Source of the DNA: Strobilurus pachycystidiatus
Taxonomy: Eukaryota; Basidiomycota; Agaricomycetes; Agaricales; Physalacriaceae
DNA length: 64,000 bases
Assembly: GCA_019915135.1 (NCBI GenBank)
Contig: JAHLMK010000018.1
Coordinates: forward strand, 620,001 to 684,000
Direction of reading: 5' to 3'
Shown here: positions 10,009 to 44,289 of the stretch, one piece after another
Position numbering within the stretch: the first letter of the stretch is position 1
How the letters are laid out: every line of letters begins with the position of its first letter
Made by a program: the position numbers and the translations under genes
The notes under the pieces: generated by a model
Databases searched by the model: none
Told to the model about the DNA's origin: nothing
The model's input: only the letters and a program-made list of their open reading frames with translations

Positions 10009-10195
10009 GTCAACACGCCACGGCAATATCTTGTGCTCGTTAACACGCCATACACCATATCTTATCAACATGCGACATGTAACCCTTGTCTCGTTAACAC
10101 ACATATATCGTCAACGCGCCACGGCAATATCTTTGCGTGCTCGTTAACACGCCATTTCCATAACTTCTTATCATCAACACGCCACAGGTAATCTT
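10009..10195 (+). repeat. Cluster of GTTAACACGCC-core motifs
   Basis: About seven versions of the core, such as TCGTTAACACGCCA and CGTCAACACGCCACGG, lie 20-45 bp apart between two converging genes. The phrase CACGCCACGGCAATATCTT occurs twice. This is the leftmost block of the dispersed motif described in the findings. The rest of the gap 9565-10336 shows nothing else. Confidence 0.75.
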
Positions 10196-10336
10196 AACCT
10201 GCTTTGCTGTTGCTGTTCTGGATCTTGCTGGCACAGAAAGAGCACAATAACAAAATGCATTTTTCAAGAAGAAGATATTCGTACAACAATCATCCTCGCG
10301 CCCGGAGTAGCTGGGCCCGCCGCCTCGGAAGTGACC

Positions 10337-10935
10337 TCAAACATTCTGCTCGCCGGCTTCGTTCGCTGTCCCGATATTTGTGCCTGCACCATTCATACCC
10401 TCCTGCCTGCTGGAATCTTCGTCAATCCGGTCCTCAATGTTGTCCGTCTTGCTTCTCCTACTCCTTTTTGCTTTGTTGGGGTTCGCGCTTGATGAGGAAC
10501 GCGTCAGAATGTGTATGGGAGGAGATGAAGGGAAGGGAAGGAAGTTGACACACAGAGCTCGGCGTTGCTTGCTCTTGTCGCGCAACGTATCTCGGTGGCT
10601 CTCGCGATATTGCGCGTCATGTTCGAGCCGCGCAGAATGATACGACATCGCTGCGCCTAACGGCCCTGCTTTAACCGCTGCGCGACGCCTACATTCGTGA
10701 CGATGAAACATAAGCTCAGGCAATAGAGTGAAAACAAAGCTACGCACCGTTCCATGGATTCTCTCGAGCGACGATTACACTCCTCACGATTACGCTTTCG
10801 GTATAGCATCTTGGACGCGTTAGCTTTGGCCCTTTTCCCGCTCTCCTGCCCATCTTGCATCTCCTGGTCTGGCATCTGGGCTGCAGTTACATCGGGAGCC
10901 GAGATTTTGACGTGAGGGGTTTTGCTCTTTGCCAT
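10337..10935 (-). CDS. Basic nuclear-type hypothetical protein (Arg-rich)
   Basis: Predicted 179-residue protein from minus-strand exons 10935-10748 and 10688-10337; the splice restores Arg at the junction. It is rich in Arg/Lys: KMLYRKRNREECNRRSRES, then RRRAAVKAG, YRESHRDTLRDKSKQRRA and NKAKRSRRSK. This Y-R-x-R-x-R-E-x-x-N repeat style is a common feature of short, unrecognised agaricomycete proteins and is shared with the N-terminus of the gene at 19702-21637. It is probably DNA- or RNA-binding, which is inference. A second intron around 10480-10560 is possible, so the C-terminal 70 residues are less certain. Confidence 0.55.
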
Positions 10936-11034
10936 GCCGGGAATGCGTCGATAGTTCGTGCACAGATCGTGGTGGAGTGTGTGAAAGTTGGTTGTACAGC
11001 ATCAAGGTACCGAAGCCGAATTAAGAACTTCACG

Positions 11035-11290
11035 TAATGAGTTAACGACCGATGAGTTCATTTCGCTCCCGGCCTTCTTTTGTTTGGCAACCTCAGCTGG
11101 GATGGATAAGGCTAGGGAGGATTTCTGATGATGCAATGCCGTATCATTACTTGCTCATGGGCATGCGATACGACAGCAGACGGGTAACGGTGAGCTGAAA
11201 GAACGTGGCGATGCCAATTTCGGGTGAAATCATAACGACCTCGTCAACTCGCTGCGCAAGTCTCGTTAACACGCCACGTCAGACAGTTCC
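11035..11290. repeat. Mosaic repeat: remnant of a gene 3' end plus GTTAAC motifs
   Basis: The segment 11095-11290 is a diverged copy of about 16683-16960. Shared phrases are GATAAGGCTAGGGAGG, TTTCTGATGATGC, GGGCATGCGATACGA and GCAAGTCTCGTTAACACGCC. In the second copy the first part overlaps the end of a coding region. GAGTTAACGACC at 11037 (inverted motif) and TCGTTAACACGCCACGTC at 11266 flank it. It lies between two divergent genes, so promoter activity is possible. Confidence 0.65.
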
Positions 11291-11440
11291 TGCGAGGCCC
11301 TGCGAAAGCGGGTCAGTTCATGAAAGCCAGAATGGCTTGACACAGGCTTACTTGCTCGTTTCCTAGGTCTTGTTGTCGTCGTTGTTAGCCATGGGTGAAG
11401 AGTCCAGACTGGGCTTATTTGGTTGTTTGGCTAGCTAGCT

Positions 11441-12043
11441 ATGAGCTTACGCCACGCTGATACATTTCCCCAGCTGCCTTCATTCGTTATCGAAAATTTC
11501 TCCGTAAGTCTCCACGCATTCGCATGCCCTATCGAAAGCCGACTGACTATGATTAGGCGATGGCATATGTGTTCACTCGCGATCAAGCCGCCTGCCTCAC
11601 CAAACATATGCTGACATTTCATGTCACCTTCGAATACGCTAACCGAGACGAATATTTTGCGGCATGGCTCGCTCGAGACTTTCAATATCGATTTCCTGAA
11701 ACAGTCGGGCTTGGCAGCATTGTGCTTGAGGTGCGATCCGCTATCACCGAAAGCCTATATGCATCTACTTAATCAGACACTCCAGGCCGCCCTCGCCTAC
11801 ATGCATGTGAATTACAACCCGGAGTTCGAGGAGAGACACCTCAAATTTGTCGACGACCTGGGTTCGATTGAGTTCCGTATGTCGTGTTTGTCATTAATCG
11901 ATCCGGAAGAGGAAGAAAGCCCTTGGGATGCAGAGCGGCGCCAGACGGATAGGAGGGTGTCATGGGGACTTGGGCTGCCAGGTTGGCCTTACATCCCTCG
12001 CAGTGAGCGAGACTACCCGCATCTCCCGTCCAATTGGGATTGA
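11441..12043 (+). CDS. Hypothetical protein with the T/S-x-x-Q ... W N-terminal module
   Basis: Predicted 164-residue protein from exons 11441-11503, 11557-11730 and 11786-12043, all phase 0. After a short leader, the sequence FTRDQAACLTKHMLTFHVTF, then YFAAWLARDFQYRFPE, matches the weak module seen in four other genes of the island. The middle has YMHVNYNPEFEERHLKFVDD. The C-terminal third is acidic then Arg/Trp-rich (EEEESPWDAERRQTDRRVS). No enzyme motif is visible. The start at 11441 gives a complete open frame; starts at later Met codons would delete the first exon. Confidence 0.65.
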
Positions 12044-12109
12044 ACGACAATTCAATATAAGTAGATGTTTTCGTATACAATAATGACAGTAGATTTAGCG
12101 GAGCGTATC

Positions 12110-12430
12110 TGCGGGTGAAATCATACGAATTCGCTAACACGCCACGTGAGGTTCTGATCCTGCCTGGCACGAGTAGAATCAGCCTGAGGGCGAGATTGTC
12201 TTGGAATTTCCAGCGGGTTACGTTGCCGGTTTCCCTTGTCTAGGGTGCAAGAGATTCTGTACTGTGACAGTAGATCCAGCAGAGTATACTGTCTCTTCGG
12301 GTGATATCATACACTCGTTAACACGCCACGTGAAGTTCTGATCCTCGCGTGAGCGCTGTCTCTCGTTGACTCTGTATCTGGCCTCGCAGAACTTGACGTG
12401 GTGAGTTAACGACCGTTGAGTTCATTTCGT
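12110..12430. repeat. GTTAAC-core motif cluster between convergent genes
   Basis: The motif appears as TTCGCTAACACGCCACGTGA (12131), CTCGTTAACACGCCACGTGA (12311) and, inverted, GTGGTGAGTTAACGACC (12399). The first two are embedded in the phrase ending GTTCTGATCCT, also found at 17105, 17290 and 38085. Nearby GTGAGCGCTGTCTCTC is shared with the leader repeat, so this is a mosaic of other repeats in the window. Confidence 0.7.
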
Positions 12431-12520
12431 TCCCGGCCTTGTTTTGTCAGAGTGCCAGCGTCAGGTATTATCAAGAAGTACAGTATATAAAAGTTGCTCT
12501 TCAATTGTAAGGAACGTTAA

Positions 12521-15500
12521 CTAATCAATGAGGACGTCGATACAAGAGCGCACATCCTGAACAGCTGCATCCCAATTCCCTAACTCTTTACCAGATGAAC
12601 CCCACCAAAATAGACCAAGCAAGACGGTGCACAAGCCGTGCGGACCTCCACAGCGCAGGACGGATAAGCTGATGCGGTCGTAATTTGCCACAGGACAAGG
12701 ACCTTGGCCGGCAATTCGACGGCGTAAAGGCGGCTGCATGCTGTCCCACCACGAAAACCATTTCGCTTTGAATGCACCCATATTCCGAATTTCCGGTGGC
12801 GCATTAAAATCACGACCGGCGGTCATCCATGCACGCAACTCAGCTGGCCGGTGAGCGCTTATGGGTAGAGTTTTCTGTCGTACATTATCAGCCAACACGA
12901 CATGGAGTAAAAGGTAGAGACCCACATCGAAGGAAGGATCATCCTTCATTATGGCGCGCTCCAAAGCCTGGAATCGAATGACTAGCTGATCCTATGGATC
13001 ACCCATAACGATAGATCGCATTTGCGCCGTAAGATCGTCTGACCAGAGGGCCGCGTTCTCCTTCTGGGCGAAGGATAATACGATCGGTTCCCGCCCCCGC
13101 CCCCCCGCCTTCCTAGTTCGCGCTGAGCGTTGTCTTTGATCCGTCTCTGGTGCGCCAGTCTTCTCGACTGTTGCTGATGTTTTTCTTTTTTTCGCTGGTG
13201 GCGGATTCTTCGTTTTGGCCGGTGCCGTTCGTTTCAATTTCTTGGTCTCTGGAGTAGCAATGGTCCGGCGAATAGAAGTGCTATCTGGAGTGGCGGGATC
13301 AGTACTGGTCGCTGAAAGGTCCGAAGGAGATATTGTGCCAGCAGCGGAGGCGGGGGGGGTTCCAGAGCGTAATCCGCTAGGGACGGGAACAGGACTTATC
13401 CTCGCAAGATACGCTTCGACACCCTCAGTGTTGTCCTGCTCACCGAAAGGGAATAGCTCTGTTCCCCCGGCCCCCACAGCCGAGCGAGTCTGGTCCGGGT
13501 CAAGCGCCGAACCAGCAGAGTCTGTGAATGGTTGAGAAAACGGTCCCAGAGTGGTACTATGGTTGTTGCAAGTCCCCTGCGCCGCTGACGTAGTAGATAG
13601 AGTACTAGATTGTCTCGTTTCAGGAGAGTTGGAGGATGAAGCCTGTTGATCGTCAAGCGAAGTTCCAAGGTACGCGGCCATGTATTCGTGATCAGTCATG
13701 TATTGGTCATCCGGAGAACGAGACGTCTCGGGCGAGTAAAGATTTGTGATCGGGAGGAGGATGGTGGCGTCACCCGACGGCGAATATGACTGACCGAATG
13801 CCGTCGATATCGATGATTCTGAGGCCAACGGTGGCATTCTTAACTCAAAAGGACTTATCGTCGGGGGGTGGGTGAAGGGGAGCGATGTGAAGGTTCGACT
13901 CAGCATTCCCGGGGAAGCTTGGGCTTGCCATGGGAACATCGAGAGCTGATCAATCCCAGTCGCTGCAGCCTGAAGGGGGGTGTTCGTGAAAGAGGTCAAA
14001 GCCCCCGTGGTTGAGGTGGGTGAATCTGCTCCGTGTGACTCTGACTCTGCGAACAAAGAGGGAAGAGGTTGGAAAGAATTGTCGGCCGAGTGTGCGTCGA
14101 GAGATGGAGATGGTTGAAAAGGATTATGAGGCAAGTCCAGCGGGCTTGCGACGCGTTCTGGTGACACCGGTGCCAATGGTAGGATATCCAATCCATCTTC
14201 GGTCGGAACAAGCGTTATGGGAGGTGAGGTGCCCATTGTCGCCTCATCCGGAGACGGAACCGTATCGATCATGGTAGAGGAGACGGGTTGCTGCGTCGGT
14301 GCGACGCCTGCCGGTGCCATGACTCCTACACCACCGACAATTCGTCCACGACATTGTTCAGGCGCTGTTCAGCGTGTCAGGAACACAGGACTCTGCCGTT
14401 CACACTAAGGGGATAACTCACAGAAGCACGTCTGTACGTGGGCTTTGAATGGGTCGAACACAGAAGCTCTGAACCCGGCATGCGCGTCTTGAAACATATG
14501 GCCGAGTGCGTTCCGAGGTCCGTAGTATGATCTGTGAAGTCGTTAAAGCAATACAAATACTGGATTGAAATACTGACACCTCGGTATCAAAGCCGCCTTT
14601 GGAGTTTGGTCCGCCTGATAAGAGGAAGTATACATGTCCCGTACCGTTCTCTAGCGTGTTGAAGAACTTGTTGAGGTGGACGGGGGCGGTTGTAACATTT
14701 CTACCGGAATGTTAGCGGGAGCCAAGACGATAAGCAATCACTGCGTACGTGTGATAATCCTCTGCAGCCTTACGCCCCTGATCTTCCGTCAGCTCTTTCG
14801 TCGCGTCGTTCCCGCCCTTATTCCTCTTGGACTTCTTCTCTTCCGCCTTCTTCTCCACCTTCGCCTGAATTGCATCGACTGCCAGCTTCTCATACTCAGC
14901 ACGCTGCTCGTCCGTTAATGTGTCCCACGCCAGATTGATGGCCTCCCTGACGAGCTGAATGTTCGGTGTGACATCTAAGCTGTTGATGTCGATGTCGGGA
15001 AGGAATCTGTCCTCGATAGGGAAATCGGCGTCAAGGTTTTTCTCCTTGCGAAAGGCATCTCGCAATCGTTCCTTCTCCTTAGCCACCGCATCGTCGCGTG
15101 CCCGAGCTTTGACAGTGTGAAAAAAAGGTTTGATGGTACCGCCGTAGTCAGACTGGGAAAAGATCTCCTTGGCCGAACGACATCGACCTTGTATAACATC
15201 AAAATCGTACGTATGTTTCTTTGAAACACTGGAGCCCGCAGGTCGCTTGTGCTCGTTGTTGTTCTCAAACCAGTTGCGCAATTTCTGTAATCATCAACGC
15301 TCAATTCGATGAAGAACCCGTTATCAAATACCCATACTTACCCGCTTGATTTTGCCAATGGAAGTTTGAGGTTTTTTGCTGTTTTCGTCTTGGACGTTGG
15401 ACGTGGTGGAGATATCTAGAGGGAGATTGAACTGTCGGCAGAGCTCTGGAACAGACCAGCGATTGAAGAAAACTGATTCCATGGTCACCCAGAACAAGTG

Positions 15501-15593
15501 ATGAGTTCCCTGGGCGACATGTTCGTAGTACGTTGGGCGCAGTTCCGCCAAGACCTTGTACTGTTCCGTCGTTGTCCATCGTCGTGGCGCCAT
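12521..15593 (-). CDS. Large hypothetical protein, expanded agaricomycete type (WTTTEQ / KLRNWFENN / HRPAEL)
   Basis: Predicted 940-residue protein from minus-strand exons 15593-15342, 15284-14749, 14700-14578, 14531-14422, 14364-13010 and 12967-12521; every junction is in phase. Order of features: N-terminal WTTTEQYKVLAELRPTYYEH and FFNRW; KIKRKLRNWFENNNEHKRP (homeodomain-helix-like W-F-x-N); a helical region; FNTLENGTGHVYFLLSGGP with YYGPRNALGHMF; a Ser/Pro-rich linker of about 300 residues; basic KKLKRTAPAK and an AT-hook-like RKAGGRGREP; then a C-terminal block with AHRPAELRAWMTAGRDF, KAKWFSWWDSMQP and GLFWWGSS. From memory this order recalls a large family of unknown function in mushrooms. 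The last intron (13009-12968) is only 42 nt; without it the protein would stop at 12992. It is divergent from the gene at 15899 across 305 bp. Confidence 0.75.
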
Positions 15594-15898
15594 GAATCAG
15601 AGTTTGGAGCAGTATCGGGATCAGGGAATCGGCATGGGTCCAACTGGGTTCGCGGACTCAGGTCGACCCCTTGGCAAAGGAAGAAAAGAAGGAAGGATGC
15701 GTACTAGAACTCCTCCGTGCATCCGCGGAAGCGAAACTATACAATTCTAGTGCCACTCCGTCTCATTCAAATTGAACAGTAAGACGCATCTGGCCGTGCG
15801 ATTGATACAATCAATCGTACAAGTTTGGTGCCATTTGACCTTTAAATTGACTACTATGGGCGCATTCGGCCTTAGTGCGATACATTTCGCCTTTCATT

Positions 15899-16621
15899 AT
15901 GACCCTCAACTTCAGCGACGCTGCTGCTGTCGAACTGCTCCTGGGGGCCCCAATCTCAGGTGACGCTATTTCATAGGTTCGAGATATGTTCCTGATTTTC
16001 CTAGGTACCGTCACCTCTGAGCTTATTGCTACTGCGGTGATTGCTCCCGATGAGGCGTCTTCCGACAATCCAGCCACCTCGAACGGCCCTGGGGTGACTG
16101 GTGCGTTTCCCCACAGCGCTTCGCCTGTAGATCTCATCATAAGAGACGCTCTAGCTCACACCGATTCCCGCGATACTATTCCCTCGATCGGCGACGCTGC
16201 GGCTGGCGACAACTCGGAACATGCTCTTTCAAGGTCGGTAGATCAGAGATTCATTCAAGAGCTCCTTCGCAAATACCCTCCGGTTCCCACCCGTGAGGCC
16301 CTCGCCAGCAAGGCCTGGCACCTTTGCTACCCTCATTTCGCAAAGTATCCTGTCAGTGCTGTTCCACTACCAAGCCATCGTCGCCACAAGATCATCCGGG
16401 GTGCGCTCAAACCGGCGGGACCCATCCCTAACACTGCTGTACAAGGGATGTCACCTGCAACGGTCGAAGCTCTTAGGGCCCTCGATCTTGACACGCCTCC
16501 GGAGGACGATATGTTCCCCTTTCCCTGGTGGTTGGTATCCCGTGGCACCTCAATCGGTATCTTCATAGATTGGTGCGCACTCCAGTCAGAGAGTTTACGC
16601 GGGAGCTCACAGAAAGCGTAG
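15899..16621 (+). CDS. Hypothetical protein ending in a broken RNase H1-N-like domain
   Basis: Predicted 225-residue protein from exons 15899-15959 and 16005-16621. The middle has RFIQELLRKYPPVPTREALA and HLCYPHFAKYP. The end reads FPWWLVSRGTSIGIFIDW, which fits the first strands of the RNase H1 N-terminal/viroplasmin-like fold (W-x-V-x-x-G-x-x-x-G-I-F-x-x-W). The expected second half, reading SYTSGIVGSVRYRVATWDKA, lies downstream at about 16640-16690 in another frame. Joining them by the obvious GT..AG pair (16574-16612) would create a TGA. Either an unusual splice or a small mutation separates the halves. A diverged copy of this 3' region exists at 11095-11290. Confidence 0.55.
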
Positions 16622-16930
16622 GGATTTGGTCAGAAGCTACACCAGCGGGATTGTTGGCTCTGTTCGCTACAGGGTGGCAACCTGGGATAAGGCTAGGGAG
16701 GGATTTCTGATGATGCGTAACCGTGGCCAATGTCGTATCATTCCTTGAATGTACTTATCATCAATTTGATGTGTATGTGCCGCCTCAGTGACGGAGAGAC
16801 TTCGCAAGTTGAGCAGCGGGAGACTGCCTTACAAGTTCAGATCAGTGCGCTGCTCACGGGCATGCGATACGATAGCAGACGGGGGACTGTGAGCTGATTG
16901 AAAGAACAAGGTGATGCGTTAACTCGCCGC

Positions 16931-18397
16931 GCAAGTCTCGTTAACACGCCACGTCAAGATGGCCTCACGAAGAGAATAAACTCGAGGGCGATATTGGGTA
17001 CGCCTGGTCGTTGCGAGCTGATTGAAAGCGAAGGTAAATCCACGAAGCAATAAGGTGGTCGGATGCTCGTGTCGATGGAAGCGTATCTGCGGGTGAAATT
17101 ATGCACTCGTTAACACGCCATGTGACGTTCTGATCCTGCCTCGCTCTTGCTGCCACGAAGACGATAGACCAGATGCCGAGATTGTCTTGAAATTCTCAAG
17201 TAGTTGGTCTCCACCGTCTAGAGTGCAAGCAAAATTGAATTGACAGTAGGTTTAGCGGAGCGTATCTGCGGGTGAAATCATACACTCGTTAACACGCCAT
17301 GTGACGTTCTGATCCTGCCTCGCTCTTGCTGCCACGAAGATGATACCGAGATTGTCTTGGACTTCTCAGGTAGTCATGGTGCCGGTCTCCGCCGTCTAGA
17401 GTGCAAAAAAATGAAATTGAGAGTAGATTCAGCAGACCATAGCTTCGGGTGGATTCATACGAACTCGTCAACACGTCGCAAATGTCGTTAACACACCACA
17501 TGAAATCCCGATGACCATATCTTCGTGGATTCATACGAACTCGTCAACACGTCGCAGATGTCGTTAACACACCACATGAAATTCCGATCCTGCCTCGCTC
17601 TTGCTGGCACGAAGGACGTATCTGAAATCGGAAGTTTCTTGAGGTTCTCAGGGATTTACAGTGAAGTTAAAGGTTTCCCTCGTCTCGAGTGCAAGAAAAA
17701 GTTATCATGATTCCATGCTAACGACGTACGATAGGCGCTATGGCCGTATAATTCGAACTGACCATCCACGCACGTTTTTAAGCCAGTAAGCGACGTTTCC
17801 TGATGTTCCATCCCCTCTGTGTCCTCCTTCGGTGCGAAGGCTAGGCGAACGAAGCGATTGATTGGTCGGATGTCGGTTCCTACAGGGGGTAGTCGTTGTC
17901 TTGTACCCGATACCATTGTATACACAGATGGCAGGGTTTGCGGGAGTTCTAGAAAGACGTGGCGAGACGAGACGTGGCGGCAAATGCAGAAGAGGGAGGC
18001 TGACTGTACCCAGTACCATTGTATACACAGATGGCAGGGTTTCGCGTGGTGGGCAAAGGCAGAGGAGGGTGGCTGACGTTAGCAGAGCAGAGTATCTGAT
18101 ATTCTGCGATTACATCATTCCGACTTCGCCTTTTCCCATTGTCGTCGTACCAGCCCAGCAGCCCAGCAGCCCCACCGCGTGTATACGCGTGAGCGCTGTC
18201 TCTCTTTGAAATTGTATCTGGCCTCCCAATCTCTCGCGCCGTCGACTTTCTCCACCGGCGATTTCGTTTTCGTCGCATTCTAGCCAGCCTGCCCTTGGTT
18301 CTCGTACGCTCGGATAGATTCGCAATCACCTCGCACAGTCTCCTTCTGCTTTCAGACGTGACATTTTTATTGCGGCTAGCCCTGCGTGTACGTGTAC
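16931..18397. repeat. 1.47-kb direct duplication, copy 1
   Basis: Near-identical to 37907-39373 (constant offset of 20,976 bp). By eye one substitution was noted (CCCATTGTC at 18134 against CCCATCGTC). It contains about eight GTTAACACGCC-type motifs, including a duplicated block CACTCGTTAACACGCCATGT at 17101 and 17282 and a pair CAACACGTCGCA(A/G)ATGTCGT at 17466 and 17546. It also contains two copies of CCATTGTATACACAGATGGC (17912 and 18013), the leader repeat at 18073-18266 and further leader sequence to 18397. No splice-supported gene is seen inside it. Confidence 0.9.
18073..18397 (+). repeat. Leader repeat, copy 2 (no gene follows)
   Basis: Same 195-bp leader as at 7541 and 39049, extended here to 18397 as in the second duplication copy. 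Past 18397 the sequence switches to GGTGGCGAATCAG and a lone inverted motif GTGGCGTGTTAACG at 18456. The gene that follows the third copy (39403-42327) is absent, so this leader is orphaned. Confidence 0.8.
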
Positions 18398-18574
18398 GGG
18401 TGGCGAATCAGTACGTATCATCCCCTCGGCGGCAGGATCCGCAGTTCTTTGCGTGGCGTGTTAACGGGAAACAAGGCGTAGGTAAGGTCTCAGGCAAAGA
18501 GTCGCGCGGTATAAGTTTCTTCATTGGAATACATCATAGATGTTTCTTACTCATAACTGGAATTCTATTCACTT

Positions 18575-19524
18575 TCAAATGAAAGATGCGTGACCTTGGA
18601 AGGCGCGTTCATTCAGGAAAGCAAGGCCAAGGTCCCCGTCCCGAGCAACAAAGACCTCACGGTCAAACTTTGACGTTGCCATACTCTGGGCGACGGAGCT
18701 TCCAGACTTTTCAGCAACGAAGTTGGTCGTGGACGGGGAAACACTGACATGGTCTTGGCGCAACCTAAGCGTCTTCCTCGCAGGATGAGATAGACAAGCC
18801 GGGATCCGTTGAGCTCACCCCCCTCCCAGCATGCACTCCAGGCAAGTTTGGCCTCCTCGCGCGTGCGGAATTCCTCATAGTGCACATAGGAGTATCCTGC
18901 TGAAGTCACTTCTGCACTGCAAGTGGCGTCAAATAGACTAAAGAGTGGTAATGGTTTCACGTACTGCGAGTTGAAAACTCCCATGATATCGCCATCAAAG
19001 ACGACAATGGCCTGATTAGCGGTCATATCCAGATCCATGCCACCTAATCTTTCGACTAGGTTGTCGACACCGTCGGAGTCGTGTACGGAGCCGAGGCCGT
19101 CGTCCGAACTTTCATCCGCCTGCGTCTGTTGTGGTTTCTTGCCCATTTGATCGCTCGATGGAAGGGGCAGTGTGGGGGCAGCTGGTTGGGTCTCTTCATC
19201 AGAGCTGATGGAGATGTAGGACGTGGCTACAGAGACGCTTGACAGAGTCGATGCCTGTCTGGCCGTATAAGGTGACCTGGTTGGGGTCTTGGATGGGGTC
19301 TGACGATGCTTGCGGTTGGACGCGGCTGCAGTCAGATTTCAGAGATTGGCGCCGAATTTCGTTAGGAAGACGTACGGCTGGTATATTGGCTCACTTTCAC
19401 AGAGCAGCTCGACGTTGACGCGCGCGCAGGAGTCGAGGTCATGGTTGAGGTCAACAACTTGAATCTCACGTGGGCCCGAGGCGCGAAGTGAGCTGGTGCC
19501 ATCGTCCCGGCCGTCAATCTCCAC
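18575..19524 (-). CDS. RNase H1-N/viroplasmin-like domain protein, ends unresolved
   Basis: Minus-strand coding region with at least two exons. A 5' exon from about 19523 contains REIQVVDLNHDLDSC and splices at GAA-A|GTGAGC to a second exon beginning at about 19327 and running past 19146. The second exon contains SSDDGLGSVHDSDGVDNLVE, AIVVFDGDIMGVFNSQYV and HYEEFRTREEAKLAWSACW. The last two fit an RNase H1-N-like fold, comparable to the gene at 29550. The 5' limit has no Met and is preceded by an in-frame stop, so an upstream exon is missing from the model. Two frames remain open at the 3' end (stops at 18613 and 18575). It may be the 3' part of the gene at 19702-21637 or a decaying copy. Confidence 0.45.
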
Positions 19525-19701
19525 TCAGACCTCTGACTCTCGATGCTACACTCAGTTTCGACCTTACTTCACCTGTACATGTATCAACTTACTGCTTCGT
19601 CAATAACTTATGGCCTCCTTGCGAGACATTGTCGAGATAAGTGCCGTCGCTCGGTGGTAGAAGTATCGTGCTCAATTCAATGGTTGACAAATGACAATAC
19701 A

Positions 19702-21637: not shown

Positions 21638-21866
21638 GGGTGGTCGTGGTTGTGATCGAAGGCTTGCTCGGCGTCACGCTGGCCGACTCTGTCACTCCTT
21701 CTCTCGACTCATGGTTGATGTATAGGGTGTCGTCTTCGATAATCATCAGGAACACCTATTGATTCCTTCTGAACGACTGACTGTGGAAGCGATGGGCAGA
21801 TTTCAAGATGATAAAGGTTCGTTACATGTCGGGGACCAAGCGGCTTAGTCCCAGCCCGTAGCCGAA

Positions 21867-34289: not shown

Positions 34290-34439
34290 TTTATCGTTGC
34301 ATTTAAACCATCCTGACAGAGTTTCTGGAAAGACTACAGAGTCGCTGCGCTGGGCTCGTGGTTCACCATGAGGCCCGACCTTTTTTTTCGTACGACGATC
34401 CTTGACTTTCTATCAGTCGAGAACCCAGTGGGTCGTCGC

Positions 34440-34900
34440 ACGAATTCAAGTTTCCCTCTTCTTCATTACTCTGCGGCGAAGAACTTCTGCTTTTGCATGA
34501 GGCGACGAGGCCTATCCCATGGAGTTGCTTCTAGTAATTCAATCGGGACGCTTCTTCATTTCTGTGAGGCGAAGGAAGCGTTCCTGCTTTTTCCTGAGGC
34601 GACGCTGACGTGGCCTAGCTATGGGTGAAGGTGCTTCTGGTAATTCAATTTGCGGGCTTCTTGCTGTGAATGGCGTGTTTGCTTTTCCATGAGGCGGTAC
34701 GGACTTCGACTGGCTATCAAACGAGGTTGCTAGTACCGGCTTTCTGTACGGCGATGATGTGCACTTTCTATTCGACGATACGGACCTGGCTGATTCTTGG
34801 GCGACGATGCTTCTAACAGTCCAATTCGAGATCTTCTTGAGATGATTCAACGAGGTTGCTATGGCCTTTCCGTATGGACTTTTATGCGTACAAAATATTT
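34440..34900. repeat. Degenerate tandem repeat, about 95-110 bp units
   Basis: Units share phrases such as CTTCTTCAT, GAGGCGA, TTGCTTCTAGTAATTCAAT and GCTTTTNCATGAGGCG. Examples sit at about 34455-34545, 34546-34640 and 34640-34720, with weaker echoes to 34900. No coding pattern is visible across 34290-35079. Confidence 0.55.
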
Positions 34901-35079
34901 TTTCTGCCAAGATCACTTTTGCATGCTTTTGCGGCAGAGGTATCTACTACACACGGAATGTAGGGCCCTTGCGGGTAACACAATCAGTGTATTGACAAAC
35001 TACTCGAAGAGTATTCACTGCTAGAGATCTTGGTCAGTTGAATCGAATGCAATCAGGACGGCGTCTTACAGGAAAAGAG

Positions 35080-35671
35080 TTATCGCAGCCGCCGCGGGCG
35101 CGGACGCCTGCTCAAATCCGCGGGGTCGCCAGGCTGGAAATCCGGCCCTTTGCGCTGAAAAATACGCCAGGCGTAGAACTTCAAAGTTTTGAAAACGTCC
35201 TGCCAATTTGTTGAACGAAGAATATAGTCGAAGATGATCCTTACCCGTCGGACCACCAGCCGTTGGCCAACCTCCTTCGGTCCGGTCTTCTTGAGGGATC
35301 GCCCGATGGGGAAAAGTTCGAGATACTGGACCCAGAAGCGATCCTCCCAATCGCAATACTGAAAAGGATCCTCTTTGCGCCACACAACGAAAAAGTCTGG
35401 AGCAATGGAGCGAAGAAAGCGATGTTCTTCTGGCTTCAAGATCTGACCGAGATTTGAGATCTAGATGCGTCCAGGGCGACTGTGAATGCATGCTTACTGA
35501 GGAGGCCTTCAAATTGTAGGGCCTCTGGATTGCCAGGTCAGCGAAGCGAAGCGCTTCGACCGTTATGAGCCGCGGCGGCGAAATAGACGAGCAGACGGCG
35601 TCTTGAACGCTGGCAGCTCTGGGACTCGGAGGAGTCAGCGGAGGAGTCAGAGGAGTTGGCGGAGGGCTCAT
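35080..35671 (-). CDS. Hypothetical 163-residue protein
   Basis: Minus-strand exons 35671-35498, 35442-35245 and 35199-35080 join in phase 0. The start Met at 35671 is followed by a Pro/Thr-rich repeat (MSPPPTPLTPPLTPPSP). The core contains ITVEALRFADLAIQRPYNL, then HRFLRSIAPDFFVVWRKEDP and WEDRFWVQYLELFPIGRSL. After the last intron come LKFYAWRIFQRKG and an Arg-rich end (SRRPRPRRLR). The frame remains open 27 bases upstream of the chosen start, so a 5' exon could exist. I do not recognise the family. Confidence 0.55.
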
Positions 35672-36187
35672 GGGTGCTAACTTGCCCCCCCGCACCACAG
35701 CGGCTGATGCCTTTTAAACTGGCGCAGATCATATTCTTGGATGGGGATGCGCTACTTGAGAGGTTGGCAAGGCCGCTTGAGGCTAACAAAGAAGTTCCGA
35801 ACGAGCTCTGAGAAACGTATCATGTAAACAGAGCATTATACTACAAGAACAGGGTATATCGGTACAATCGAAATCTAGGAGAGGACCCCTGAGCATATGA
35901 AGACAAGCTACATAAAATTCCGTACCAATCACGGCAGACGTCGTTTTTGAAGTTTTCTGTGGAATGCCAATGTCCCTGGTTCCACCTACGGGCAATCTGA
36001 ACGCGGGGTTCTACGCGAACGGGCGTGATGCATACCGTTATACCTGTTCGTGTTCTGCGCGGTGTTCCTATTTGACTGAGATAACCGGCATTGATACTTT
36101 GTTGCCATCGGGCTGGGGTCCATCTGTATATGTCGGAAGGGAATCTCTGCGATCAATCCTCTGTGCGCGCGTGAGACGATGCTAATC
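35672..36187. other. Intergenic region without recognised feature
   Basis: About 500 bp. No motif block, repeat or splice-supported frame was found. Confidence 0.35.
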
Positions 36188-36799
36188 TCAAATCGAAGTG
36201 TTCCATACCATTCTGCAGACCAAATGATCCTCCAGTATCTGACCACCCTCCTCCGTGTAGAAGAATGTGTCGCCAAGTCTGCCGACAGGTGGTAGCTGAA
36301 ACTCGCTCGAACTTGCTTTGTGTTCGAGAATGTGGAGTCGTGCGGTGCGATGTAAGACTGTCCTTCCCCGGGACGTCACGGACGGAGTGCGATCCTCTAT
36401 CATCATATCCTCTGCCTCTAGTCTGTGAAATATTCGCTCCAATAGCTAAAAGCCGCTATGAGTTGTCTTTCGTGTCATTGATAGACTGACACGCACCATA
36501 ACACCAGCGGATCGCCATATCATCAAAGAGGACACTGTAGTCTCGTCAAGTCGAGGGTCCGACAGACAGAACGTGTTTTGAAATGTCTTCCAAAGGTCGC
36601 TCAAAAAGTCGGTTACCTCCGAAACTCCTAGTTTCCGAGCAACGTTGTACCGGTGTTGATAATGCAGTGCCCAATCCAAGTGGTCCTTCCGAAACGTGCC
36701 GCTGGAAGACATATTCATCGACGGCAGTAACTCATTTGCTTGGGAGCTTGAAGACATCGGTGGAGTATGGTGATGGTTTGAGAGAGAGGTGGTTCGCAT
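36188..36799 (-). CDS. Hypothetical 186-residue protein
   Basis: Minus-strand exons 36799-36497 and 36445-36188, phase 0. The first exon is Ser/His-rich (SNHHHTPPMSSSSQANELLP), then helical (LDWALHYQHRYNVARKLGVS; TDFLSDLWKTFQNTFCLSD). The second exon has LLERIFHRLEAEDMMIEDRT and FQLPPVGRLGDTFFYTEEGG. Unrecognised. It may be the 3' part of a longer gene that includes the fragment at 37020-37608 on the same strand. Confidence 0.5.
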
Positions 36800-37019
36800 T
36801 ACATCATGCGCCAGTGAATTGACAGTCGTACTAACAGCACGTATCTACACGAACTATGTCTGACTCGAAGGAGGCAAAGCTTCATGCAACGTCACATGTA
36901 GAGGCAGAGAACACGAAGGGAGGGGCTTATCCGAGTTAAGGGGATAACGTTCGCTAGGACGATGTCAGTAAGAGGAAAGAAAGCAATATGGCGGAAAACA
37001 TACTGAAGAGCCCTCATCA

Positions 37020-37608
37020 CTGGATCGGTCAAGCAACGAATACGAGCGGCAGCCCACTTTAAGGCAGAGACGATATCCTGGCGTCATTAGTTGCCTAGCA
37101 TCCGACAAACAAAGATGAGATACCCAGCGACGAATGCGACTATGATACCAAAGGTTATCCGCTCGTACGCCTTCGCGGACGATCTCGGGGTACCGAATGA
37201 ACCAAGTGCGAAAAAAGGCCTTGATCCAGACTTTGATGGCTCGTGCATCGCTTTTTTTCCAAACGTGGAGAAAATTGAGCCCTACAGCAGCGATGGTGTG
37301 CAGTTCGTCGGTGGTGAAACCCTGGTCGCGTCATTCGAATGAGAATCAAACTATTGATGCGCATAAGCGAGAAGCTTACTGTCGGTGTTCTCAGAGGAAC
37401 AGAGTATATCTCGAACAGTGTTTTTGGCGCGTTTGGTGGGACCCGTAAAGAGTGAGGCCGGCAGGTCACAGTCAGAGGTTGTTGGTCTGGCATAACCAAG
37501 AAGGGGCAGTCCGGGATATGTGGTCATGTTGGCGAGACATCCATGCCGTTTTAGTAGAGCAGCCTTGCTCTTCTTCTCCGTTGTACACTCCGGAAGAGAC
37601 GACGGCAA
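37020..37608 (-). pseudogene. Gene fragment with the T/S-x-x-Q ... W-type module, junction out of phase
   Basis: Two coding-like segments lie on the minus strand. The upstream one (to 37380) contains RPTTSDCDLPASLFTGPTKR and ends at a good donor (GTAAGC). The downstream one starts after an acceptor at 37322 and, in one frame, reads GFTTDELHTIAAVGLNFLHV, then KVWIKAFFRTWFIRYPEIV, resembling the module in the genes at 11441 and 43454. The two segments do not join in phase: donor phase is 1 and acceptor phase is 0. The 5' end is also unclear; the first ATG in frame is at 37527. It is best treated as a damaged or mis-modelled gene. Confidence 0.45.
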
Positions 37609-37906
37609 CGCGCTGCGATGGATGTGCCTGACAGTGATAGGAAGAGAAGAGAAGAGGTGCGCATTGATGGACGACTACAAGTAGTGCGTATTTTCCCTAA
37701 ACCAACTTGGCCGTCACGGTGCCTGATTAGCGCATTTGGGCGGCGGAGGAATCCGTAAAATCTGCTATCGCGAGCTGATTGGAAGCGAAGATGAATCCAC
37801 GAAGCAATAAGGTGGTCGGAACGATGGGGTGGTGTGCTCGATGTCTCCTTATAGACCATACTATGGCAGTAGAGTTAGAAGGCGATGCCAATTTCGGGTA
37901 AAATCA

Positions 37907-39373
37907 GCAAGTCTCGTTAACACGCCACGTCAAGATGGCCTCACGAAGAGAATAAACTCGAGGGCGATATTGGGTACGCCTGGTCGTTGCGAGCTGATTG
38001 AAAGCGAAGGTAAATCCACGAAGCAATAAGGTGGTCGGATGCTCGTGTCGATGGAAGCGTATCTGCGGGTGAAATTATGCACTCGTTAACACGCCATGTG
38101 ACGTTCTGATCCTGCCTCGCTCTTGCTGCCACGAAGACGATAGACCAGATGCCGAGATTGTCTTGAAATTCTCAAGTAGTTGGTCTCCACCGTCTAGAGT
38201 GCAAGCAAAATTGAATTGACAGTAGGTTTAGCGGAGCGTATCTGCGGGTGAAATCATACACTCGTTAACACGCCATGTGACGTTCTGATCCTGCCTCGCT
38301 CTTGCTGCCACGAAGATGATACCGAGATTGTCTTGGACTTCTCAGGTAGTCATGGTGCCGGTCTCCGCCGTCTAGAGTGCAAAAAAATGAAATTGAGAGT
38401 AGATTCAGCAGACCATAGCTTCGGGTGGATTCATACGAACTCGTCAACACGTCGCAAATGTCGTTAACACACCACATGAAATCCCGATGACCATATCTTC
38501 GTGGATTCATACGAACTCGTCAACACGTCGCAGATGTCGTTAACACACCACATGAAATTCCGATCCTGCCTCGCTCTTGCTGGCACGAAGGACGTATCTG
38601 AAATCGGAAGTTTCTTGAGGTTCTCAGGGATTTACAGTGAAGTTAAAGGTTTCCCTCGTCTCGAGTGCAAGAAAAAGTTATCATGATTCCATGCTAACGA
38701 CGTACGATAGGCGCTATGGCCGTATAATTCGAACTGACCATCCACGCACGTTTTTAAGCCAGTAAGCGACGTTTCCTGATGTTCCATCCCCTCTGTGTCC
38801 TCCTTCGGTGCGAAGGCTAGGCGAACGAAGCGATTGATTGGTCGGATGTCGGTTCCTACAGGGGGTAGTCGTTGTCTTGTACCCGATACCATTGTATACA
38901 CAGATGGCAGGGTTTGCGGGAGTTCTAGAAAGACGTGGCGAGACGAGACGTGGCGGCAAATGCAGAAGAGGGAGGCTGACTGTACCCAGTACCATTGTAT
39001 ACACAGATGGCAGGGTTTCGCGTGGTGGGCAAAGGCAGAGGAGGGTGGCTGACGTTAGCAGAGCAGAGTATCTGATATTCTGCGATTACATCATTCCGAC
39101 TTCGCCTTTTCCCATCGTCGTCGTACCAGCCCAGCAGCCCAGCAGCCCCACCGCGTGTATACGCGTGAGCGCTGTCTCTCTTTGAAATTGTATCTGGCCT
39201 CCCAATCTCTCGCGCCGTCGACTTTCTCCACCGGCGATTTCGTTTTCGTCGCATTCTAGCCAGCCTGCCCTTGGTTCTCGTACGCTCGGATAGATTCGCA
39301 ATCACCTCGCACAGTCTCCTTCTGCTTTCAGACGTGACATTTTTATTGCGGCTAGCCCTGCGTGTACGTGTAC
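37907..39373. repeat. 1.47-kb direct duplication, copy 2
   Basis: Near-identical to 16931-18397. Copy 2 runs directly into the leader and first exon of the large gene at 39403-42327, with the shared sequence ending just before TACGTGCTGTCTCC. This copy is therefore probably the source or better-preserved location, and copy 1 carries an orphan leader. It contains the same set of GTTAACACGCC motifs. Confidence 0.9.
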
Positions 39374-39402
39374 GTGCTGTCTCCTTAAACACTTCCCGAT
39401 CG

Positions 39403-42327
39403 ATGGCCAATACTCATTGTGCAGCAAGACAGTCGAGTTATTCCGCAAATCTCACCGTGATGAGTCCTCTACATTTCGATCGTCAGGGGAGGTAAGTGTT
39501 CGTGTTTCGTTAGACTGTATAAGTACTCATTATTTTCTATGCGGCCAGAATTCCGCAAGTCATGCATCCTGTTGATGTTCACGAGGATCCCACCTGGAGC
39601 ATCATTCCGAACTCTGAGTGTAGGGTCATCGTCACGCGCAATCTGCATGTGTACTACTCGATGGGTTCCAATACTTTACCACCACTTCCAGATCACAATA
39701 TCATGCCCTTTGATCCCCTCCCCAAACCCGCTCCTGATCCAACGGCATATTTAGATCGCCACTGGGCAAGTGACCACACGCCGTGGCAAGCGTTCTTACC
39801 GCGCGACACAGACAGCGCCTGCCAATGTCAGCTTTTCCAATCACTGTCATTTACGCGGGAGTCGATCACATTGGTACCCGAGGGTCAAAAGGAGTGGCGA
39901 CTTGAACAATGTCACATAGATCAACTCCGAGAACTGGAGTGGATTTTATGCACGCTGCGACAAGCATTCCTCGACAAGATCAAATTCCTCAACGTTGGGT
40001 ACACATCCTTTCCAATCCAGCACTACAACTTGTACGGCCGCCCTCAGCGTACTCGTCTCCGTACAATTCACCAAGCTATACGCGCCCGCTCTGCCTTGCT
40101 TATGCTTGGCGCCGAAGTTTCATTCTTGTTCGCGTACGTACAGGCAACCTCTGGCTCCACTGCGTTGGACTGGCGTAATCTAATCGCCCCCCACGCGATA
40201 CCTCATCATTTGCTTGATTTCATCGAGTTGTCCTGGTTGTTCGACCATGGCCTTTCCTATCAAACTATGCTGTTACCCGAGGAATGGGTCGTCAACAGGA
40301 CAGAACGTATAGGAGCTCTCGTCCATATGAAGCATTGCAGTTGGGTTCCTTTGTTCTTTGTCTTCCATAATTTCCATGTTCCGTTGTGGTTGTATTTCGG
40401 TACTACCACCGACATCTTGAAGCACTCCGTGACTTGTCTGGATCGGGACGCAATCCGAGAAGCTTCCCGTTGGCCGATTGAATCCGTTCCTGCTCCCAAA
40501 TCCATCCCTACGAAGTGTCACAGGCCGGTGATACCACGTCCTCTCTTTCCTCAGCCCCATCCTTCTTCGGTGGAATCTTTCATTGATCCGAGTCCAACAT
40601 CTACTCCCAATCTTCTACCTGTTTATGAACCTGTTTTCCCAGGGGATCGCAAAACCTTCCAGCTCCTGGGCAAGTCGTGGCAGTCTTTCCTGGATCGACG
40701 TGATCAGCACATAGCTGAGCTCCGTCGTGAAGAGGGTGCTTCTGACAGGCAGGCTCGTGAGGAAAGGGAGGCACGAGTCATAGACCAAAACATGCCTTCA
40801 GGGTCTGTCGTATTCGTATGGGAGGAAGGTCCTCGAGGATATCTTGTTCGGAATCACGTTAGAAATTGTATGCTGAGCTCTTACTGGTACAGTTTCACTC
40901 CCTCCCAGCGACTGTATTGTTCGTGGACGGACGAGTGGGATCTAATTGACGAGCTCGGTGTTGATCAACCTGTTGAGTCCAATCTCGATGCCGATATAGA
41001 CGATATAGACGAACCCCTGCCCACTGACGGGCCTATCAACGAGTCTGATGTTGCTTTCACCGACAGTCTTGTCACCGACTCTGGTGTTGCGGAACCCGAA
41101 GAAGGCAAAGAAGGCGAGATTATCGAGACAATACAAACTCCTCCTACGTTGTATACCCCCCCTCCCCCTCGTATAACTGTCACCAGTATGAGTGCTGCGG
41201 ACGTTGCCCCTCTGACTGTGGCCTGCATTTCGCCTGCAGAGCTAATAACGTCACGGTTCGGGATTACGATACCACAGGCTGATCTGGTGGTTCCTTGCGA
41301 CGACAGTCGTTGGAAAGACGCTCTTCACTCGAGTGGCATGCACAAATGCGAGCAGACTCGTCTGCCCGTCAATCGGCTCGCATTTGTCCAAGCAATCGAA
41401 CTCCTTCGGAGTCTTGATGATCTCCCACCCCAGTTCCTAGCTCGCTTCAACAGCTGGAGTGACATGAGTGTCGACAATCCTCTCTCTATCTGCCTCAGGA
41501 CGCGTGCTTTCAATCTGCGAACGGGTGTTGTCGCAAATGCTGAAATGGTTTACGAAATCGTTCCGCTCTCGGAAAGCGCCACATGTCGGCTCTTCGTTTT
41601 CACAGCGACAGATTTCCTCCATTGCTTGCGAGCAGGCGCACACACTGTTGAGGACCTTATCGTGTATCTTGTCGGGCGCGGTATGCGCTATTGTCGCTGC
41701 TTCGTATGGCCCAAGGCCCATTCGTCCAACTCTATACCTCGTATCCCCCGCTACATCCCAATGCGACCTTACCGTTACACACCTGACTCGGCGGAGTTCT
41801 TCCGCTACTTTCGTCGATGCCGGGATCTGTTGTGCGACCCAAAGGTGGCCCGCGCGGCTCTCTCTCGTGGCGGCATTGTGTGGCGCATAACATTAGAGCA
41901 CGTACCGTCATCGTGGGCAAGCAGTGCTCCGAGTATGCGAACCATAGATGAGCATGGAAGGTTTCATTCGACGATTGACAGCGAATTCGCATTGGTAGAA
42001 GAACCACTGACGGACGAACATATCGACATAATCTGCGGGGTTTATCGCGTGGCGAGGTCTCCCATTGAGAAGAGCGTACAACAGACGGAAAATTTCTCGT
42101 GGTTTCCTCTACCCGACATGTGGCAGCACAGTGGGCTGGACTTGGGGGTATGGACACCAGACGCGGAATCATGGTTCAGAGATCGTGTTGCGGCCCACGC
42201 GAACGGTCCTGTTGCAATAAGGAATCAGACAGAATGGCGGCAGGCTCTGCGTGGCGTTCGGCATCTTGGGGAACTTCGGAGACGTGTAGAAGAATGTGCG
42301 AGCGAATGTATATCAAAGTTGAAGTAA
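39403..42327 (+). CDS. Large two-exon hypothetical protein (955 aa)
   Basis: Exons 39403-39491 and 39549-42327; the intron restores Arg. Order of features: N-terminal MANTHCAARQSSYSANLTVM; FRESITLVPEG-type text around residue 120; LRELEWILCTLRQAFLDKIK; an Arg-rich stretch with RPQRTRLRTIHQAIRARSAL followed by hydrophobic LLMLGAEVSFLFAYV; WRNLIAPHAIPHHLLDFIEL; CSWVPLFFVFHNFHVPLWLY; basic ELRREEGASDRQAREEREAR; an acidic linker near residue 500 (DADIDDIDEPLPTDGP); then Pro-rich YTPPPPRITV. The C-terminus has LGELRRRVEECASECISK. I do not recognise a domain, although the composition recalls expanded agaricomycete proteins of unknown function. Upstream in-frame Met codons (39271) lie in the leader repeat; 39403 is chosen because it follows the repeat boundary. 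A partial copy of its 3' end lies at 44055-44200. Confidence 0.75.
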
Positions 42328-42439
42328 CTCAGGCACGGTATCAATCTGGATGTAACTTATTTTCAGTCTGTTAAGGTCAAGATGGAATACATGCAGTGGA
42401 CAAGCTTAAATAAATAGATATAGATTATAACGTAGATCG

Positions 42440-43045
42440 AGGCGGAATGGAATTTGTATACAGCGTGTCAACGAGCTGCAATCTGTACACGGCGTGTTAA
42501 CGAAAATGTGTGGAGAATCAACGAGCTACATTCAGATTCCAACGCTGGAATGTATCTCACGAGTAAGTACACGCTCTCTTGAATCGTTGCTCAATTACGG
42601 GCTTACCTTTGACAGGAAACCCTCGAATTTGACATCCTCCAGAGAGGACATCTGGACGCCGCCTCCTTCGGTCTTCGAAGCGCTAGGTGTCGAAGTGTCT
42701 GTCCGCTGTCTGAGGCTAAGGTAGACCCCGATAGATTTAAACGTAGATCGAGGTAGAATGGAATTTGTACACGGCGTGTTAACGAGCTGCCATACTTACA
42801 CAGCGTGTTAACAGGCTTACCTTTGACAGGATACCTTCGACCTCCTTCGGTCTTTGACCGGCTAGGTGTCGAAGTGCTTGTCTGCTATTCGAGGCAAAGC
42901 AGCACCCCAGATAGATTTGAACGTAGATCGAGGGCGGAATGGAGTTTGTACACGGACGTGTTAACGAACCGTCATCTGTACACGGCGTGTTAACGAACCG
43001 TCATCTGTACACAACGTGTTAACGAGCCGCCATCTGTACACGGCG
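42440..43045 (-). repeat. GTTAAC motif arrays in reverse orientation, with repeated exon-like segments
   Basis: About nine copies of the reverse core lie here, for example ACACGGCGTGTTAACGAACC at 42978. They are spaced about 35 bp apart between 42955 and 43045 (CGTCATCTGTACACGGCGTG repeated). Between motif groups, a segment that would read PPPSVFEALGVE or PPSVFDRLGVE occurs at 42660 and 42840 and again at 43305. This suggests a gene 5' region was copied along with the motifs. Confidence 0.8.
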
Positions 43046-43453
43046 TGTTAACGAAGGTATGTAGTAGTAGTAGCAGAGATTAGCTCCGTTCAGATTCCAA
43101 CGCTGGAGTCTATCTCACGAGTCACGAGTAAGTACAGGCTCTCTTGAATCGTTGCTCAATCTTACCTTTGACAGGAAACCTTCGAGCTCGTCAAGCAGTT
43201 ATTTATCGAGGTGGGTGCTCATCGTTGCAGTCCGTGTCGCTGGCCAGTGTTGACGTCGTGTCAGTCGCTGTCTGGCGATATCCGCCAGAGAGGACATCTG
43301 GACGCCGCCTCCTTCGGTCTTCGAAGCGCTAGGTGTCGAAGCGCCTGTCTGCTGTCCGAGACACAGCAGGACCCCAGACTCCGATTACGTCCTGACCTGT
43401 CCAAGATAAAAGACGTAGCAGCGACTCGTAGGGACAACTCACTTCTTTACGCC

Positions 43454-44031
43454 ATGGCCTATTGTCTTTCTCAATACGTCCTTGACGCGACCAACAGCGA
43501 GAGCCTCGGTACTCCAGCCCCAGACATCGGAAAAGTGGAGCCAGCATCGTAAGTGGGATCGAGCGCGAATGTCGTGGTCTTCTTGCTACCAAACTAAAAC
43601 CGCATCAGCGACCAGATGGTACGGTTGAATCGTGGACAATACCAAGATATTCTTGACGAGGTGGACTCTCTCACGCGCGTCATCGCCAATGCACCGACTT
43701 GGAGTCGCGAAGACTATCTTTTGGCTTGGTTCAAGCACTGGTTTATGATGTATCCGCACGAGCGCGAACAGCGAGAAACCCGCTGCAAGGTAACCATCTC
43801 CCTTGCATTGCTCGCCAACTTCTCATCGTTCCGAAGGAAATCACCCTCGTTTTGACACGCTTGGTGCGTGAGACATGCGAAAGTCGCCACAAGGAGAAGA
43901 AAGTATGCCAGAAGTTGGGATTGGGATTCACGAGGGGTGCGGTTTCGATGTTGGAGCGGGTGGACATATTTGAGAAGTGGGTTAGAGAAGATTTCAAACA
44001 CCCGGATGGTTACCCGCTGTATCTCTGCTGA
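43454..44031 (+). CDS. Hypothetical protein with the T/S-x-x-Q ... W N-terminal module
   Basis: Predicted 156-residue protein from exons 43454-43548, 43609-43789 and 43837-44031, in phase. It has RLNRGQYQDILDEVDSLTRV, then YLLAWFKHWFMMYPHERE, resembling the modules at 11441 and 37321. It continues EITLVLTRLVRETCESRHKE and KKVCQKLGLGFTRGAVSMLE, ending DFKHPDGYPLYLC. A Met at 43454 is used, but the frame is open upstream to 43211. A 5' exon shared with the repeated PPPSVFEALGVE segment is possible. Function unknown. Confidence 0.6.
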
Positions 44032-44054
44032 ACAACCAGCGTAATTGTGTGTCA

Positions 44055-44200
44055 GTATATCATTAGAGCATGTACCGATAACGTGGGCAAGCAGTGTTCC
44101 AGCTATGCAAGCCATAGATGAGCATGGAGTTTCGAGGTCTTTGATTGAGAGGAGCGTACAACTAACAATTTTTTTTCATGATTTCTTCTACCCGACGTGG
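44055..44200 (+). pseudogene. Fragment of the 955-aa gene's 3' coding region
   Basis: The phrases ATTAGAGCATGTACCG, GTGGGCAAGCAGTG, CATAGATGAGCATGGA, GAGCGTACAAC and TTCTACCCGAC parallel 41890-42118 of the large gene. An internal segment of about 90 bp is missing, and substitutions have broken the frame. It is followed by one motif, CGGCGAGTTAACGAACC, at 44208. Confidence 0.75.
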
Positions 44201-44289
44201 TATGCGGCGAGTTAACGAACCAGTCAGAAATTCATTCACTCGGCACGGACCATTCCTGATCGCCATCATCTCCCTTTTCACCTTCACCC

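Follow-up and report, generated by a model that had tools for sequence, protein, structure and literature searches.

VANDALs of plants are MuDR-type transposons. VANC of Arabidopsis binds a short motif that has built up in the noncoding parts of its own elements, in the form of tandem repeats that differ from one another, as the accessible portions of two reports describe (PMC5735166, PMC10398659). The Kyakuja transposons are KDZ elements with 7-bp target duplications and CA..TG ends lacking inverted repeats, according to the available part of Kojima 2025 (PMC12730594), and for brown and green algae the accessible text of another study describes giant KDZ transposons of some 30 kb whose accessory genes mostly lack a known function (PMC12477816). 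In this paper we describe a giant KDZ transposon from the basidiomycete Strobilurus pachycystidiatus (assembly GCA_019915135.1) that carries arrays of a short motif together with a gene for a small basic protein. It lies in a window of 64,000 nucleotides (contig JAHLMK010000018.1, positions 620,001 to 684,000), which is C18:620001-684000 when the 61 contigs of the analysed 51.8-Mb genome are numbered with a C; positions without a contig are those of the window. We suggest that the arrays are operators, made of sites of about 19 bp for a candidate binder, most likely the element's own basic protein, which would control the element, and we hold this reading with about even confidence.

As with the VANDAL motif in the accessible accounts of it (PMC5735166, PMC10398659), the motif is dense in one element type only and is found in noncoding tandem repeats. 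The superfamily and the kingdom are different, the transposase is KDZ, and no known VANC-like domain was seen in the candidate protein. In VANDALs the motif is bound by an element protein, whereas here it is the co-occurrence of gene and site, known from sequence alone, that connects the two. With the Kyakuja of Agaricomycetes, as far as the available part of that paper describes them, the element shares the KDZ transposase, the 7-bp duplications, the CA..TG ends and the lack of true inverted repeats, and it differs in its length of 40 kb, its private motif arrays and the lack of a TET/JBP match (PMC12730594). It resembles the algal giants in being a large KDZ transposon with accessory genes, but comparable motif arrays go unmentioned in the accessible text on them (PMC12477816). 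Titles and abstracts on fungal motif-based anti-silencing and on giant fungal KDZ cargo, covering few subscription papers, gave no such arrays, and a literature search for the word TCGTTAACACG returned one insect paper only. Giant KDZ elements in algae and Kyakuja in mushrooms are already known; against this partly accessible literature, the new observation is that a fungal KDZ element has a motif array of its own and a gene that travels with it.

The element and its borders

The first-pass annotation had described an accessory island at 10.0-44.2 kb. This is the correct span of the motif, but the borders of the island lie further out, at 7191 and 47283, where a second copy on C9, the ends and the target duplications place them. 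The main features are:

7191..47283, no strand assigned: giant Kyakuja-type KDZ transposon, 40,093 bp, ends CAGGGCATACC...CCAGGTG
7184..7190, no strand assigned: left target site duplication GAAAGTC
47284..47290, no strand assigned: right target site duplication GAAAGTC
10337..10935, minus strand: small basic-protein gene, candidate motif binder, exons 10748-10935, 10554-10688 and 10337-10487, 157 aa
24950..27702, minus strand: KDZ transposase gene region, with a CxC2 cluster in the open reading frame (ORF) 27328-27702
26493-26933 and 26089-26628, minus strand: KDZ domain ORFs; the portion conserved among KDZ genes is 24950-25774

The second copy, at C9:950448-991199, is about 99.9% identical and has its own 7-bp duplication, ACATTGA. 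Over 40.3 kb of aligned columns the two copies show 22 substitutions, of which 7 fall at 18345-18427, where a local duplication muddles the alignment. Their flanks share nothing of at least 300 bp at E 1e-20, save one inverted 757-bp match at 66%. A 7-bp target duplication was found in all six elements seen at both ends (GAAAGTC, ACATTGA, ACATATG, GTCAGAC, TCCCTTG and TGGAGAC). The CA..TG ends form no terminal inverted repeats, as only short offset matches exist between the CAGGGCATACC end and the CCAGGTG end. The transposase matches the Pfam family PF18758 (E 4.7e-34 and 1.2e-18) and CxC2 (E 5.2e-31). The two copies, the ends, the duplications and the transposase together therefore identify the island as a single mobile element, a recently moved giant of the Kyakuja type. 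These KDZ features explain its mobility, which is relevant to a comparison with Starships; among the 40 of 140 element ORFs of at least 90 aa that were scanned with Pfam there is no tyrosine-recombinase captain. An inner element bounded by the outermost motif blocks at 10.0 and 44.2 kb was considered and rejected, as a relative on C2 continues across 10.0 kb apart from two insertions.

This C2 relative (C2:1209748-1259515) is old and, where it can be matched, about 87% alike. About 240 bp in from its left end it is interrupted by a 42.8-kb stretch, perhaps another giant element, with inverted ends starting CACCTGATTG and flanks GTTGGGAC/GTTGAGAC. The same kind of ends, each with its own 7-bp duplication, is found in three presumably non-autonomous kin of 2439-2461 bp (C13:1421188-1423648, C19:356359-358805 and C9:590249-592687). 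An element of about 17.5 kb at C6 ~2013990-2031447, with the ends CAGCGCATAC...CCAGATG, likewise has its own 7-bp duplication. Further single-end matches occur on C20 and C21.

A conserved site within unlike repeats

The motif is distributed over the following blocks and single sites:

10007..10184, plus strand: block of 6 sites, 3' of the basic-protein gene
11035..11276, no strand assigned: block of 3 sites, 100-340 bp upstream of the basic-protein gene ATG
12131..12412, no strand assigned: block of 3 sites
14652..14665, minus strand: single weaker site, score 14.8
16916..17574, plus strand: block of 8 sites with spacings of 179 and 20 bp, and a 76-bp tandem repeat
18454..18467, minus strand: single site
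22744..23550, plus strand: block of 9 sites in 45-bp repeats, with an extra site at 22931 just under the cut-off
24534..24547, plus strand: single site at the end of the 23657-24563 duplicate
28460..28540, minus strand: block of 2 sites, 5' of the transposase region and within the open frame 27998-28663 (minus strand) without a Pfam match
31075..32122, plus strand: block of 15 sites in 160-bp repeats, two sites per unit
37914..38550, plus strand: block of 7 sites within the 37907-39374 copy of 16931-18398
42461..43054, minus strand: block of 7 sites in 29-bp repeats
44205..44218, minus strand: outermost right site

Allowing up to two mismatches, TCGTTAACACGCCA has 44 matches in the window where 0.29 are expected (100 shuffles, largest 3), so the enrichment over shuffled sequence that had been called for is present. 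A weight matrix built from these 44 matches provides the site scores, with a main cut-off of at least 11. It finds 65 sites in the element and 66 in the C9 copy; flanking sequence yields 1 on C18 (63.9 kb) and 4 on C9 (39.2 kb). With a cut-off of at least 16 there are 53 in the element, none in the C18 flank and 1 in the C9 flank. These counts are partly circular because the matrix is derived from the same sites, but a word count without any seed is not, and its top two 8-mers are CTCGTTAA and then TCGTTAAC, the latter with 41 copies against 1.26 expected. The 65 occurrences of TCGTTAACACGCCA and close variants span 10.0-44.2 kb, 51 of them on the plus strand. The by-eye count of 60-70 exact or near copies and their positions were thus accurate, as was their rarity elsewhere: the rest of the window holds one weak match only (61089, score 10.1).

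The site is longer than the core first seen. We calculated the information per column by letting 15 blocks vote once each, 13 from the element and 2 from C35; some of these blocks are related, so that the votes are not 15 independent ones. Information is within the null at column 0, high from column 1 and raised until about column 19, giving a sharp 5' edge. Columns 15-19 are conserved although they were unused in picking the sites, and the full site is therefore about 19 bp, TCGTTAACACGCCA-Y-G-Y-R-A. Among the five C35 sites, two match columns 15-19 in full, two match four columns and one matches two; the full-match pair is among the 15 blocks. The annotated claim that only a GTTAAC-centred core is common to the blocks was right about a shared core and too narrow about its extent.

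The repeats that carry the site are of several kinds. At least five repeat families, those at 10.0, 17, 22.7-23.5, 31-32 and 42.4-43.1 kb, have no match to each other at the BLAST cut-off used (E 1e-10). Other blocks are related: the 12.1-kb block to the 17-kb block (73-75%), with the 38.1-kb block belonging with both, and, as inverted relatives, 28.4 kb to 31-32 kb (82-86%), 11.0 to 12.4 kb (90%) and 11.15 to 16.85 kb (69%). In the BLAST self-comparison 37.9-39.4 kb is a 99.9% copy of 16.9-18.4 kb. It had been stated that the flanks differ completely between blocks, which holds between families and fails for these related blocks; one long ancestral repeat accounts for some block pairs and not for all. 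Two internal duplications are near-identical (16931-18398 with 37907-39374, and 21867-22772 with 23657-24563), each with a breakpoint beside motif sites. Relative to the window there are insertions of about 0.44 kb at 38117-38124 in the C9 copy and of 1.06 and 1.37 kb at 10099-10106 and 10647-10654 in the C2 relative; they show 8-bp overlaps resembling target duplications, and two of the three lie within motif blocks.

Within the repeats the site diverges less than the remaining sequence. In 11 repeat pairs chosen to limit overlap, 26 of 298 site positions differ against 221 of 1127 in the rest (Fisher P 2e-6), and the site is the less diverged part in 9 of the 11. The 135 self-matches below 97% identity, many of them overlapping or reciprocal, point the same way, with 274 of 4185 site positions changed against 2714 of 15761. 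The sites also avoid ORFs. Only 13 of the 65 fall inside ORFs of at least 100 aa, where 45.9 are expected from 2000 pattern shifts (P 0.0005, the smallest obtainable), and 4 fall inside ORFs of at least 200 aa against 15.7 expected (P 0.026, pattern shifts). By block, 4 of 14 lie inside ORFs of at least 100 aa, which cover 70%. Together with a site pair retained on C35 (below), the sharp edge, the additional columns, the lower divergence and the exclusion from ORFs support the proposal of a conserved protein-binding site within unlike repeats, although the binders that had been named for it find no support.

A basic-protein gene family that accompanies the site

The basic-protein gene was modelled by eye and with a script, from the DNA sequence only, and is the sole gene modelled exon by exon. 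Spliced paralogues on C35 and C10 are 47% and 36% identical to the element's protein and conserve two basic stretches, YRxRNRExCNRRSRE..RRRAA and YRExHRNxLRAKSExRR. With the C35 paralogue protein as query there was no match at E 0.01, and PDB searches gave no usable match; a profile search returned one short ENA protein carrying the first basic stretch (E 5e-7).

In the whole genome the exact 14-mer TCGTTAACACGCCA occurs 25 times: 11 in the element, 11 in the C9 copy, 1 on C2 and 2 on C35. The pattern TCGTTAACNCGYYR has 74 matches, with 32 in the element, 32 in the C9 copy, 1 on C2, 5 on C35 and lone ones on C1 (two), C7 and C8, while its reversed control has 8. Each of the C2 and C35 sites has a paralogue of the basic-protein gene no more than about 1.4 kb away. 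The family has 11 matches at 9 loci, and 7 of the 9 (the two element copies, C2, two on C35, C10 and C5) have a site scoring at least 16.6, against a background rate of one such site in 156 kb. The C5 locus, the weakest family match, is a 99.4-99.5% copy of C10 interrupted by an insertion. Leaving aside C5, as a copy of C10, and C2, as an old relative of this transposon, the independent cases that remain beyond the element are C35, with two paralogous loci, and C10. Counting both C35 loci and C10 as three independent cases, the chance of this co-occurrence is about 1e-6; it is about 1e-4 if C35 is counted once.

On one side of a head-to-head site pair, 29 bp apart, the two C35 loci align at 72%, and on the other at 67%. 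The pair is retained at both loci, and the DNA around it is unalignable. Beside both site pairs (loci L050 and L020) there is a conserved hairpin with GGTTCGAGTCC, which we take to be tRNA B-box-like; ARAGORN gave no match in L020 or L019, nor did Rfam in L050 or L020. A C10 match at 711156 (score 10.8) was left uncounted as a motif site, as it resembles an intron branch point and acceptor. The genome-wide search proposed in the first-pass annotation thus finds the motif confined to few loci, and there it tracks the basic-protein gene and not KDZ genes, so the site appears to follow this gene rather than the transposase.

Several observations weigh against the operator reading. The basic protein matches no Pfam family. 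Of the nine family loci, two (C26 and C13, E 0.002-0.003) contain nothing that scores above 8.7, the site on C10 and C5 is not a perfect one (score 16.7), and a good site at C9:945862 (score 18.4) sits beyond the C9 copy, 4.6 kb away from it. Relative to the gene, the site is found upstream in the element, on C10 and on C5, and solely downstream at C35 and C2. It lies 275 bp upstream of the ATG on C10; the element has three sites 100-340 bp upstream and six downstream, and the C35 pair is downstream. Simple promoter autoregulation does not fit all loci with such mixed positions. In two of the 11 repeat pairs the site is the more diverged part, and in the decayed C2 relative it is not better kept, with 25 of 132 positions differing against 509 of 4205 in the rest. 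The faster decay there may arise because the site holds CpGs, as a C-to-T process would give. For some pairs of unlike blocks the 40-bp flanks are more alike than shuffles, perhaps because such flanks can hold neighbouring sites; these pairs join the 10.0-kb block to those at 11, 22.7 and 42 kb, the 11-kb block to that at 42 kb, and the 12-kb block to that at 18 kb. Finally, the intact CpGs of the element may reflect its youth alone.

The C2 relative and the flank pairs are also what would be seen if the motif were neutral satellite-like sequence spread by duplication, its core kept by chance or by the copying process, and the relatedness of several blocks, one of them a 99.9% copy, fits this too. 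We consider it improbable, as neutral spread leaves unexplained the conserved columns that were not selected and the sharp 5' border across the 15 partly related blocks, the lower divergence of the site, the avoidance of ORFs and the head-to-head pair retained at two C35 loci. It is unlikely, too, that the element has hijacked the site of a host transcription factor to drive its genes. The avoidance of ORFs and the sites beside gene copies on C35, C10 and C5, outside this element, could be read in this way, but many host targets would be expected, and besides C2 and C35 there are only the four lone TCGTTAACNCGYYR matches in 51.8 Mb against 8 for the reversed control.

Another possibility is that the KDZ transposase binds the motif as an internal site, helping to pair or compact the ends of a very long element, and the first-pass annotation had named a transposase as a potential binder. 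The element is unusually long and the sites are spread along most of its length. Yet no site scoring at least 11 lies within 2.8 kb of either end. None of the three kin of about 2.45 kb, which share these ends and show clean 7-bp duplications, holds a site scoring at least 8, and the C6 element contains no match of TCGTTAACNCGYYR. The nearest transposase relative, on C27 (69% amino acid identity over the matched part), aligns to 24594-28223 of the element, a stretch that fits just between sites 24534 and 28460. Its 10 kb show no tandem repeats and no site of at least 8. The genome has at least 174 KDZ matches while the site is restricted to few loci, and the sites beside genes on C35, C10 and C5 have no KDZ match within 15 kb among the matches listed. 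With same-end kin and the nearest transposase relative lacking it, the site is not the transposase's general site, and we regard this explanation as quite unlikely. Replication-origin or partition sites of the iteron or parS kind, which arrays of short sites with a fixed core would suit, are very improbable in an element that is integrated with target duplications and whose scanned ORFs hold no replication or partition domain, and nothing pointing to a centromere or origin turned up, in an analysis with no direct test aimed at either.

Cargo, decay and the proposed role of the arrays

The element also encodes a long ORF:

39523..42324, plus strand: 934-aa ORF with many genomic paralogues, holding one weak site (40289, score 12.4)

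It has a distant match to Blastosporella zonata, an agaric. No TCGTTAACNCGYYR match was found near its paralogues at 63-69% (two on C45, C53, C55, C56, C28 and C1) and 51% (C19). In this genome a search for Tet_JBP has little power; its 13 matches are weak, with none above the cut-off and none in the element. Three of these sub-cut-off matches (C10:584586, C15:1392990 and C27:139562) have a distant paralogue of the 934-aa ORF about 4-5 kb away, and the ORF family may belong to TET-carrying transposons. Outside the element, the window contains a separate repeat of about 1.5-1.6 kb (4719-6191, 48632-50298 and 50625-52274; 80-85% alike) and a minus-strand tRNA at 52570-52667, which was found by Rfam and left uncalled by ARAGORN in its bacterial setting.

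The C2 relative has decayed mainly at cytosines: in the C2 direction C-to-T and G-to-A changes make up 332 of 405 substitutions, with the highest values at CG (150 of 609) and CC (82 of 452). Its substitutions against the element show no periodicity that would indicate clear reading frames. In the element CpG stands at 1.09 of expectation, against 0.98-1.01 in the flanks.

For the operator reading the order of events might be the following. The element would carry the basic-protein gene together with its site, and tandem and segmental duplication would have spread the site into the stretches between long ORFs, where selection would retain it while the remaining repeat sequence drifts. Dense local sites would recruit the basic protein to this element alone. 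The recruited protein would then keep the element genes expressed, probably by a VANC-like opposition to host cytosine-directed silencing, or else by plain activation. The cytosines of the C2 relative are mutated while the element keeps its CpG, which may be a matter of age alone. The further idea of a private anti-silencing system evolved independently of plant VANDALs, in which a tiny basic protein and arrays of a 19-bp site possibly replace the TET/JBP demethylase of some other Kyakuja, is one that we put forward as doubtful.

If the operator reading is true, the basic protein would select a TCGTTAACACGCCACGYRA-like motif. The question addressed is how large transposons remain active where genomes mutate or silence repeats, and the element offers a testable protein-site pair in a fungus, with the C-to-T decayed C2 relative as a contrast. 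Were it confirmed, it would represent a second, unrelated origin of anti-silencing or self-regulation by motif arrays, and the VANC strategy would be a general one.

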